Shown one piece after another: positions 7,357 through 22,376 of a stretch of 50,443 bases of DNA. The notes beneath the pieces were generated by a model that did not search any database, was not told the DNA's origin, and saw only the letters and a list, made by a program, of their open reading frames with translations. How positions within the stretch are numbered: position 1 is the first letter of the stretch; each line of letters begins with the position of its first letter. Position numbers and translations under genes: made by a program. The DNA is taken from NCBI GenBank assembly GCA_023265175.1, contig JAHFUI010000004.1, positions 26,864 to 77,306 of the forward strand. Direction: 5' to 3'. The stretch comes from Acidobacteriota bacterium (lineage in GTDB: Bacteria > Acidobacteriota > Vicinamibacteria > Vicinamibacterales > CAVVIG01).

Positions 7357-9654
7357 GTGAAGTCTACGTCCATGCCCGGACCACGATCATCGCGCAGGCT
7401 CGCTTCGTCGCTTACCGGGCTCACTGGGCTCACCGGGCCATCTCGAGATCGCCGACAAGGCGTGCGACACGCACTGCTGCACACGCTGCCAGGCCGCGCG
7501 ATCGTTGTCGGTCTGGTGGTGCGGCTCGTCGTCTACGGTCTCAGCCTCGCGCTCGGCACCGCGCCGGCGTTTCTCGGGATCGTCGACACCGCGGCGGGCA
7601 TCGCGCTGGCGATAGGCGCCGCGTACTTCGTCTTTCGCCTGCTGGTGATCGCCAAGCGCCGATTGCTCTGGCGGGTCCGCCGCAAGCTCATTCTCTCGTA
7701 CGTCTTCATCGGGTTGATTCCGGCCACGCTGATCGTCCTGTTCTTCGTGTTATGCGGCCTGCTGCTGTTTTTCAACTTCAGCTCGTATCTCGTACGGACC
7801 CGGCTGCGCGCGATGGGGGATCGCGCGCAATTTCTGGCCGCGAGCACGGCGCTCGAAATCGAGCGCGCCGGCGGACGCGACGTCGCTGCGATCCTCGGGC
7901 GGCGGCAGCAGGTGGCCGCTCGCGAATTTCCCGACGCGTCGCTCGCCCTCGTGCCGGTCGACCGTCCGTGCGCGCAAGGCGCCCGCGGAGGCGCCAGCGC
8001 GAACGTGGCGGCTGCGCCGGCGACGGCCGGACCGTGGGCGCACGTCGAACCGCCGCGGACCGTGCCGCCGTGGATCGACTGCACCGGATTCACGGGACTG
8101 CTCGCGTATCGTCACACCACCGGCGTCGCACCCGATCGCGCGGACTCTCGACAGACGATCACGGTCAGCGGTCAACGGATGGACTTGGCGGGCGGCACCG
8201 AAGACACGCACATGTTGCTGCGTGCCGTCGCCTTTCCCGAGTCACCCATGCCCGGGTATGCGGTGATAGCCGATCTGCTCGTCAGCGAGGACGTGAAGCG
8301 GCAGTTGCGGCAAGAGACGGGCGTCGATATCCGCGGCACAAGCGCGCTGCAGGCCGGTGATCAGGCCGAGCCGAAGCCGCTCACCGGACGATCCGGCGGC
8401 GACGGTGGGGCCAGAGCCGAATCGACCGGGCCGCTCAACTGGGTCGCGTTCATCGAATACCGCGACTGGAACAGCGGCGCGATCGGCACGCTGCTCGTGT
8501 CGGTCGAACTGAGCATCGGCCGGATCTACAGTCACATTTCGGCCGTGCAGGGATCGATTGGCAACAGCAGCTATGGGCAAGTGCTCCTGACCGTCCTGTT
8601 CATTGTCGCGGGTCTGTTTCTCATCATCGAGTTCATCGCGCTTCTTGCCGGGCTCGCCCTCGCCAAGTCGATCACCGGATCGGTCCACGAGCTGTTCGGC
8701 GGCACCGAACGGGTTCGCCAGGGCGACTTCACGCACAAGATCGCCGTCAAGACCGACGATCAGCTGGGCGAGCTGTCCCTGTCGTTCAACTCGATGACCG
8801 CCAGCATCGAGGATCTGCTTCGCCAGGCGGCCGAGAAGAAGCGGCTCGAGGAAGAGTTGCGCATCGCGCGGGAAATCCAGATGTCGCTGCTGCCGCAGGG
8901 GCCGCTCGAGATGCCGGGCCTGTCTGTCACCGCGCTGTGCGTGCCGGCGCGCGAAGTGGGCGGCGACTACTACGATTTCTTCCGGCTGGGCGAGCGGCGG
9001 CTCGGGGTGTTGATCGCGGACGTTTCGGGGAAGGGGACGTCGGCCGCCTTGTACATGGCGGAGCTCAAGGGCCTGGTGCTGTCGCTCAGCCAGATTCACG
9101 CGTCGCCGCGCGCATTGATGCTGGCGGCCAACCGCATCATCGCCGCGAACCTCAATCCCGGCAGCTTCATCACGATGACCTACGCCGTCGTCGACCTCGA
9201 CGCGCGCACGATGACCTACGCGCGCGCGGGCCACACCCCGCTGATGTATCTGCCGGGACCCGACTCGCGCCTCGACCGGCACGTGCGCGTCCTGGCGCCT
9301 GATGGTCTCGTGCTCGGCCTGAACATCGACAACGGAGAGATGTTCGAGCGTCTGCTCGACGAGCACACGCTCACGCTCCACGCGGGCGACGTGGCGCTGT
9401 TCTTCACCGACGGCATCACCGAGGCGATGAACGAAGCCGACGACTTCTTCGGCGAGGGACGTCTCGGACAACTGATCGAAGAGCACGCGCACCTGTCTTC
9501 CGACGAGCTGCGCGAGCGCGTCCTGCGCGAGATCCAGGCGTTCGTCGGCAGCGCACCCCAGCACGACGACATGACGATGATCTTCCTCAAAGTGGAGGAC
9601 ATCGCCGCGCCGGCGACGATCAACGCGGGGACCGTCGAGCTTGCGGCGTCCTGA
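7357..9654 (+). CDS. membrane-bound SpoIIE/PP2C-type serine phosphatase with HAMP domain
   Basis: This 765-residue protein has two or three membrane helices in the first 155 residues, an extracytoplasmic sensor region (about 160-400), another membrane helix near 410-440, a HAMP linker (about 441-495) and a C-terminal PP2C/SpoIIE phosphatase. Metal-binding motifs are VGGDYYDF (about 534), ADVSGKG, FTDGITEA and HDDMTM. Such proteins dephosphorylate anti-anti-sigma factors in partner-switching stress pathways or act as response-regulated phosphatases. No anti-sigma partner is in the window. The start is GTG at 7357. GC-rich hairpins fill the 166 bases upstream. Confidence 0.88.
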   Translation: MKSTSMPGPRSSRRLASSLTGLTGLTGPSRDRRQGVRHALLHTLPGRAIVVGLVVRLVVYGLSLALGTAPAFLGIVDTAAGIALAIGAAYFVFRLLVIAKRRLLWRVRRKLILSYVFIGLIPATLIVLFFVLCGLLLFFNFSSYLVRTRLRAMGDRAQFLAASTALEIERAGGRDVAAILGRRQQVAAREFPDASLALVPVDRPCAQGARGGASANVAAAPATAGPWAHVEPPRTVPPWIDCTGFTGLLAYRHTTGVAPDRADSRQTITVSGQRMDLAGGTEDTHMLLRAVAFPESPMPGYAVIADLLVSEDVKRQLRQETGVDIRGTSALQAGDQAEPKPLTGRSGGDGGARAESTGPLNWVAFIEYRDWNSGAIGTLLVSVELSIGRIYSHISAVQGSIGNSSYGQVLLTVLFIVAGLFLIIEFIALLAGLALAKSITGSVHELFGGTERVRQGDFTHKIAVKTDDQLGELSLSFNSMTASIEDLLRQAAEKKRLEEELRIAREIQMSLLPQGPLEMPGLSVTALCVPAREVGGDYYDFFRLGERRLGVLIADVSGKGTSAALYMAELKGLVLSLSQIHASPRALMLAANRIIAANLNPGSFITMTYAVVDLDARTMTYARAGHTPLMYLPGPDSRLDRHVRVLAPDGLVLGLNIDNGEMFERLLDEHTLTLHAGDVALFFTDGITEAMNEADDFFGEGRLGQLIEEHAHLSSDELRERVLREIQAFVGSAPQHDDMTMIFLKVEDIAAPATINAGTVELAAS

Positions 9655-9689: not shown

Positions 9690-9711
9690 AGATCAAGTAG
9701 GTTAAGCGGAC

Positions 9712-10656
9712 GTGCCTGATCTCGTCGTCATCTTCCGCGCGCACTCCGATATCGAGGCGAGCGTCGTCCGGGGCCTGCTCGAAGCGCACGGCGTGCCGTC
9801 GGTGATGTCTCCCAACGTGCCGTATGCGGTTTTTCCGCCGACGGTCGGCGCGCTGGGAGAAGTGCGGATCTCGGTCAACGAGAGCGACGCCGATCTTGCG
9901 CGGCGGATCATCGAGAGTCATCGGACCGAGCTGCCGGGCGGCCGCTTGATCCGGCTGCGCGACGAATTCGAGGCGCTCCAGCAGGCAATCGGATATCGCT
10001 TTCGCGACGTCGGCCTGCTCGAACACGCGATGACGCACACCTCGCGCGCCAACGAGGACGTCAGCGGCGGCGTGCTCGATAACGAATCGCTCGAGTTCCT
10101 CGGCGACGCAGTGCTGGGCTTCGTGATCGCCGACCAGTTGTTCCGAGATTTTCCGGCATTCGACGAAGGACAGAAGTCGAAGACCAAGGCCGCGCTGGTA
10201 TCGACGGCCGCGCTCGCCCGGCAGGCCGAGCGGCTCGGGCTCGGCGATCATCTGCTGCTCGGCCGCGGCGAGGAAAAAACCGGCGGCCGGCGCAAGCAGG
10301 CGCTCCTCGCCGATGGCTACGAGGCGCTGATCGCGGCCATCTATCTCGACGGCGGCATCGAGCAGGCGCACGCGTTCATCACGCGCGCGTTCGCCCCGCT
10401 GCTGGATAACATCCGCCGGCATGGGCTTTCCGGCAGGGATTACAAGTCGTCGCTCCAGGAATACCTGCAGTCACACGACGATCCGCTGCCCGAATACCGG
10501 ATTGCCGGCACGATCGGTCCCGATCACCGCAAGCTGTTTCAAGTGGAAGTCGTGGTGCGCGGCGAACCGATCGCCACCGCGACGGGGCCGAGCAAGAAAG
10601 AGGCGGAACAGGAAGCCGCCAGGGTCGCCTTGGAGAAATTAGGAATTCAGAATTAG
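9712..10656 (+). CDS. rnc: ribonuclease III with N-terminal DUF2007-like domain
   Basis: The 314-residue protein is about 80 residues longer than usual RNase III. Residues 1-72 (DLVVIFRAHSDIEASVVRGL...) look like the DUF2007 signal-transducing domain. Residues about 84-235 are the RNase III domain with the signature NESLEFLGD at 124-132 (E128, D132) and the second metal site at D201/E204. Residues about 243-312 are a double-stranded RNA-binding domain. All catalytic acids are present, so it should process rRNA and structured mRNA. The GTG at 9712 is the only start that keeps the extra domain. The last residues (LGIQN) are encoded inside a tandem-repeat tract. Confidence 0.9.
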   Translation: MPDLVVIFRAHSDIEASVVRGLLEAHGVPSVMSPNVPYAVFPPTVGALGEVRISVNESDADLARRIIESHRTELPGGRLIRLRDEFEALQQAIGYRFRDVGLLEHAMTHTSRANEDVSGGVLDNESLEFLGDAVLGFVIADQLFRDFPAFDEGQKSKTKAALVSTAALARQAERLGLGDHLLLGRGEEKTGGRRKQALLADGYEALIAAIYLDGGIEQAHAFITRAFAPLLDNIRRHGLSGRDYKSSLQEYLQSHDDPLPEYRIAGTIGPDHRKLFQVEVVVRGEPIATATGPSKKEAEQEAARVALEKLGIQN

Positions 10657-10691
10657 GAATTCAGAATTCCTAATTCCTAATTCCCAATTAG
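10637..10691. repeat. heptad tract AATTAGG/AATTCCT forming an inverted repeat
   Basis: Two 14-bp units (AATTAGGAATTCAG) are followed by three 7-bp units (AATTCCT, AATTCCT, AATTCCC) complementary to them. The stop codons of both convergent genes, rnc and the AAA ATPase, lie inside it. The AT-rich stem probably acts as a bidirectional terminator. The same unit recurs at 22.3 kb. Confidence 0.8.
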
Positions 10692-22328: not shown

Positions 22329-22376
22329 AATTCAGAATTGCTGAATTGCTGAATTCCTAATTCCTAATTCCTAACC
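22329..22376. repeat. heptad tract AATTCCT
   Basis: AATTCAG, AATTGCTG (twice) and AATTCCT (three times) run end to end between the transglycosylase and emrB genes. The emrB stop codon (TAG read inside AATTAGG) is part of the tract. The unit is the same as at 10.64 kb. Confidence 0.78.

Follow-up and report, generated by a model that had tools for sequence, protein, structure and literature searches.

In bacteria of the order Vicinamibacterales (Acidobacteriota), the housekeeping ribonuclease III (RNase III), encoded by rnc, carries a third domain: a DUF2007 domain (PF09413) is fused to the N-terminus of an otherwise complete enzyme. The gene was analyzed in a stretch of 50,443 nucleotides from an Acidobacteriota bacterium, the whole of which is referred to here as the window, and its relatives were followed through the order and beyond. 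The enzyme family and DUF2007 are each already known; what appears to be new is their combination, fixed order-wide on the housekeeping copy. By its fold, conserved loop and profile relationships, the extra domain resembles a protein-docking module more than it does a signal sensor. The features of the locus are collected in Table 1.

Table 1. Features of the rnc locus in the window (residue numbers refer to the rnc product)
Feature	Position	Strand	Basis
rsbU-like gene (HAMP + SpoIIE/PP2C phosphatase), in tandem upstream of rnc, 57-base gap	7357..9654	+	Pfam
rnc, DUF2007-RNase III fusion, 314 aa, GTG start	9712..10656	+	ORF, Pfam and NCBIfam matches
DUF2007 domain (PF09413), residues 7-69, beta-alpha-beta-beta-alpha in AlphaFold2 models	9730..9918	+	44.9 bits (N-terminal piece alone) vs gathering score 25.7
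Beta-2/beta-3 loop, residues 36-51, consensus ~FP(L)xVxxLGE(V)	9817..9864	+	Sequence conserved, pLDDT low
Linker, residues 72-88; residues 73-80 with pLDDT < 50	9925..9975	+	AlphaFold2 model; low pairwise identity
RNase III catalytic domain, residues 89-227, seven acids intact	9976..10392	+	Pfam, NCBIfam, alignment
Double-stranded RNA binding domain, residues 244-310	10441..10641	+	PF00035, E 3.9e-18

An earlier note on this DNA had read the protein as a complete RNase III with all its catalytic acids, preceded by a DUF2007-like domain. The fusion of a true DUF2007 domain to a full RNase III is confirmed by a domain search of the whole product, in which both parts score above their cut-offs. 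For the N-terminal piece alone, the DUF2007 match has an E-value of 1.3e-11. The NCBIfam model TIGR02191 covers residues 89-310 (E 1e-72, 244 bits against a cut-off of 166), and the Pfam families Ribonucleas_3_3 (PF14622), Ribonuclease_3 (PF00636) and dsrm (PF00035) all exceed their cut-offs within residues 101-310. The seven acids listed as conserved for the E. coli enzyme, E38, E41, D45, E65, E100, D114 and E117 (PMC8708148), correspond, always 87 positions further on, to E125, E128, D132, E152, E187, D201 and E204, which are invariant among 60 relatives. The conserved acids, the C-terminal dsRNA-binding domain and the TIGR02191 equivalog score place the protein with class I bacterial RNase III, such as E. 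coli Rnc, which it also resembles in being present as a single copy: a search of the host genome returned this rnc as the only RNase III match. From this family membership we infer that the enzyme would cleave dsRNA as a homodimer and take part in rRNA maturation in the normal way. Bacterial class I enzymes have been described only as two-domain proteins (PMC8708148), comprising the catalytic and dsRNA-binding domains, whereas the Vicinamibacterales protein has DUF2007 as a third, N-terminal domain. This addition weakens the label of an ordinary two-domain RNase III and leaves membership in the enzyme family unaffected.

The frame of rnc cannot begin earlier than annotated, since an in-frame TAA at 9703-9705 forms the third triplet upstream, nine bases ahead of the GTG. 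The sole start-like codon from residue 52 to residue 106 is a TTG at residue 79, which lacks a Shine-Dalgarno motif. In 69 related loci, Shine-Dalgarno-like 4-mers were found at 46% of annotated starts, at 26% of internal start-like codons (residues 63-96) and at 24% of random in-gene positions, and thus the internal signals stand at background; the earlier note had asked whether a start near residue 75 lacks a ribosome-binding site, and by these measures it does. Gene fission or a wrongly assigned start was ruled out by the upstream in-frame stop together with the absent internal start signal. Scans for promoters, terminators and Rfam families across the rnc region gave no useful result.

The phyletic spread, which the earlier note had left to be established, identifies the fusion as the standard rnc of Vicinamibacterales and not as a one-off. 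Among 60 members of the family and order (host genome included), a near-full-length fusion lies on a single contig in 51, which rules out an assembly artefact as its source, and in three genomes (G020, G022 and G025) fragments covering the N-terminal domain lie on contigs that are split or short. The fused gene is also present in a one-contig genome of 7.48 Mb (G029, L050). In total, the domain is present in 54 of the 55 order genomes giving any match; G044 holds the one in-order RNase III without DUF2007, and another five of the 60 relatives gave no match. Four order members estimated to be 91-100% complete (G028, G036, G043 and G056) have no RNase III match at all, which probably reflects assembly gaps and possibly true absence. 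In the alignment of 60 order members, 59 match DUF2007 at E <= 0.001. A contig scan with the N-terminal domain alone returned 70 loci, 69 of which run on into RNase III, one of these being truncated by a contig edge; the remaining locus is a weak match in Bacteroidales.

Searches for the fusion covered Acidobacteriota and the phylum of the Bacteroidales record (G333). In a 297-genome sample of Acidobacteriota, no fusion was found among the matches listed outside the order, all of which begin at residue 64 or later. Likewise, none was found among the matches listed for 148 genomes of Bacteroidota, where no rnc match begins before residue 63 and the DUF2007 part is matched by three short frames of their own. 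A plasmid collection searched with the N-terminal domain gave one match (E 0.7), which is not meaningful. Four public records titled Acidimicrobiia or Cyanobacteria (L074, L098, L100 and L106) nonetheless contain Vicinamibacterales-type rnc; these titles look wrong, because the coordinates of L098 and L106 match those of the order members G059 and G050.

The added domain is, as estimated from pN/pS, under purifying selection of about the strength acting on the dsRNA-binding domain. The DUF2007 part has a ratio of 0.25, close to the 0.23 of the dsRNA-binding domain; the catalytic domain is lower at 0.14, and the two linkers are higher at 0.29 and 0.37. The value of the DUF2007 part is not the pattern expected from a dispensable leader.

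The adjacency of rsbU and rnc is kept through most of the order, as part of a widely kept neighbourhood comprising a cystathionine gamma-synthase-type gene, rsbU, rnc, an AAA/winged-helix gene on the other strand, and purA. It is also kept in an unfused sister lineage (two genomes from another family of the same class), in which rsbU lies upstream of rnc on the same strand, as in the window. In this lineage the rnc frame is 239-244 residues long and lacks DUF2007, and in L128 the two genes nearly touch. Since the pair exists there unfused, the domain most likely joined a pre-existing gene pair. In the RNase III tree, a single branch has all the fused sequences on the same side in 76% of the bootstrap replicates (weak support, 79/15). 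These sequence comparisons fit a single addition of DUF2007 at or near the base of Vicinamibacterales, within the existing rsbU-rnc pair, after which the domain would have been kept.

The adjacency of the two genes suggests that a signalling phosphatase and RNase III are transcribed together. A strict dependence of the fusion on rsbU was rejected: six loci (L093, L099, L105, L111, L118 and L122) keep the fusion with no rsbU match in the available upstream sequence. Fusion-specific residues in the catalytic domain were also sought, and the eight positions that differ from ten unfused sequences proved uninformative, because some of them (e.g. K155) are shared by the sister lineage. The in-order exception, G044 (L130), has an rnc without DUF2007 that is strongly diverged (45% identity) in an unchanged neighbourhood, and its long branch is placed among the unfused sequences of the RNase III tree. 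Either loss of the domain accompanied by fast change or replacement of rnc may account for this genome. Because this rnc occupies the same neighbourhood without the domain, DUF2007 is not strictly required.

The 3' end of rnc coincides with a dispersed heptamer repeat, (CTAATTC)n / (GAATTAG)n, located in the window at 10643-10690 and 22350-22370 and in more copies elsewhere in the genome (L277-L282). At some sites the repeat consists of two opposed arrays capable of forming a hairpin. The 14-mer CTAATTCCTAATTC has 42 exact occurrences at roughly 17 sites in the host genome, against 0 for the reversed control pattern. The hairpin predicted at rnc (-23.2 kcal/mol, z -3.9) covers the final GIQN codons of the gene together with the interval before the convergent AAA gene.

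The AlphaFold2 model of the whole protein has a mean pLDDT of 87.7 and a pTM of 0.59, with RNase III well predicted. The N-terminal domain modelled alone (pLDDT 81.6) is a small alpha/beta fold without a membrane helix or a fourth strand. A sequence search of the PDB with this domain gave no meaningful match. Foldseek ranked 2hfv (RPA1041), which we take to be a solved DUF2007 member, first for the domain (E 0.025, TMq 0.64), and VIA-align gave a Z of 7.9 with an rmsd of 4.7 over 70 residues for the same pair. In the same comparison, ring-building motif 1 (RBM1) of SctJ-type proteins and FliF reached Z 7.6-9.6 with an rmsd of mostly 1.3-2.0 over 55-60 residues, ACT domains reached Z about 6, and PII-like proteins Z 5.0-5.5 with an rmsd of mostly about 3-5. 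As these Z values are moderate, the link to ring-building motifs was also examined with sequence profiles. The profile of standalone DUF2007 proteins aligns with FliF RBM1 of the same phylum with a score of 38.4 and a probability of 95%, compared with a best score of 13.4 in 60 column shuffles and 10.8 for the reversed profile; with PII, the standalone profile aligns at a probability of 0.4%. The profile of the fused domain alone reaches a probability of 9-14%, and the link is thus indirect for the fused form, running through the standalone family and the fold. Pfam reports no direct match to YscJ_FliF (PF01514) in the fused domain. FliF and SctJ share the beta-alpha-beta-beta-alpha fold with it but are membrane-anchored ring proteins.

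Outside the order, the closest relatives of the domain are encoded by short frames elsewhere in the genome that have a similar loop, e.g. SHTLYPFTVNGLGETRI in L229. Among the matches listed outside the order, these relatives sit away from rnc, whereas the window encodes the domain as part of RNase III. The beta-2/beta-3 loop, of the PxTVxGLGE type in standalone Acidobacteriota members, is common to the fused domain and the standalone DUF2007 proteins of the phylum, other families included; this shared conservation suggests that the function was brought in from the standalone proteins. No standalone DUF2007 gene beside rnc, which would be a Rosetta-stone neighbour, was found in relatives among the pairs of places compared, and no constant neighbour of standalone DUF2007 was found by eye in 12 loci. 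The host genome (L032, C191) itself encodes a second, diverged standalone DUF2007 protein (30.0 bits, above the cut-off), near a gene for an ABC-F-type ATPase.

We tentatively favour, while stopping short of calling it probable, a role for the domain as a protein-docking module tethered to an otherwise standard RNase III and acting through its loop. In this model, DUF2007 would be a small, flexibly linked domain with a fold like that of ring-building motifs, present twice per RNase III homodimer. The conserved loop (FPLxVxGLGE) would attach the enzyme to a partner protein or to the surface of another DUF2007 domain, and this docking may set the place or timing of cleavage, with the chemistry of the enzyme unchanged. 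Isolated FliF RBM1 is monomeric and has been proposed to act by contacting a neighbouring domain (PMC8786727); a docking module is for this reason preferred over a ring builder, as an RBM-like fold by itself is no proof of self-assembly. The invariant residues of the domain, most of which are those expected in the core of the fold, weigh against the docking model. A further-reaching version, which we regard as doubtful, would make the domain a genuine homologue of ring-building motifs, by which RNase III is assembled or docked into an order-specific multi-protein complex, with DUF2007 generally being a cytoplasmic contact module of the RBM type and not a PII-like sensor.

A sensor role, in which DUF2007 would recognise a nucleotide or small molecule in the manner of PII-like and ACT domains and thereby switch RNase III activity, appears unlikely. 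The long beta-2/beta-3 loop sits at the position of the PII T-loop, and weak fold matches to aspartokinase ACT, SbtB, PstA and GlnK (Z 5-6, rmsd mostly about 3-5) point the same way, as do the Pfam family title, 'putative prokaryotic signal transducing protein', and the label 'Pii-type' repeated in PMC11841066. However, the PII fold matches rank below those to ring-building motifs, the fourth strand is missing from the domain model, and the hhalign probability against the PII profile (PF00543) is 0.4-0.9%. Apart from Ser12 and Glu15, the domain has no cluster of invariant polar residues. The proposals of the earlier note that DUF2007 senses signals or binds membranes were not borne out: the signalling role derives from the Pfam title, and the domain has no membrane helix and a median net charge of -5.

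It also seems improbable that the domain serves to steady the RNase III homodimer or to aid its folding, with neither a partner nor a signal. There is a eukaryotic parallel, compared here by position only: yeast Rnt1p and Pac1p carry N-terminal additions ahead of the catalytic domain, and the N-terminal fragment of Rnt1p stabilises its homodimer (PMC8708148). Conservation across the order would be expected of such a stabiliser, which could also be lost, as in G044. On the other hand, the linker is flexible (pLDDT < 50), RNase III of the sister lineage manages without the domain, and the loop conservation extends to standalone DUF2007 proteins. Contact with RNA or the ribosome, which would widen or narrow the choice of substrates, is suggested by attachment to an RNA-processing enzyme, but is very unlikely, since the domain is acidic and its profile scores against the dsRNA-binding domain at noise level. 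Finally, an internal restart yielding RNase III without the domain, the N-terminal part being separate or regulatory, is nearly excluded: GTG codons near residues 74-80 occur in a number of relatives, but at 79-80 they are expected, because Val is the majority residue there and the genome is GC-rich, and the window offers just the motif-free TTG.

The earlier note had not known this architecture as a described protein, and in agreement with this our searches of open-licence papers found none mentioning both DUF2007 and RNase III; DUF2007 is named in four of these papers altogether, and searches for PF09413 and RPA1041 in the same literature returned no information on function. The architecture may already be listed mechanically in domain databases. 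A textbook two-domain housekeeping enzyme has three domains throughout one Acidobacteriota order of soil and water bacteria, and since these bacteria have kept the third domain on their only RNase III, some RNA-processing step probably depends on it. The fusion ties DUF2007 to an enzyme with well-known substrates and assays, which makes the family testable in a defined setting, and the profile link between DUF2007 and the ring-building motif provides a concrete hypothesis for the entire DUF2007 family.
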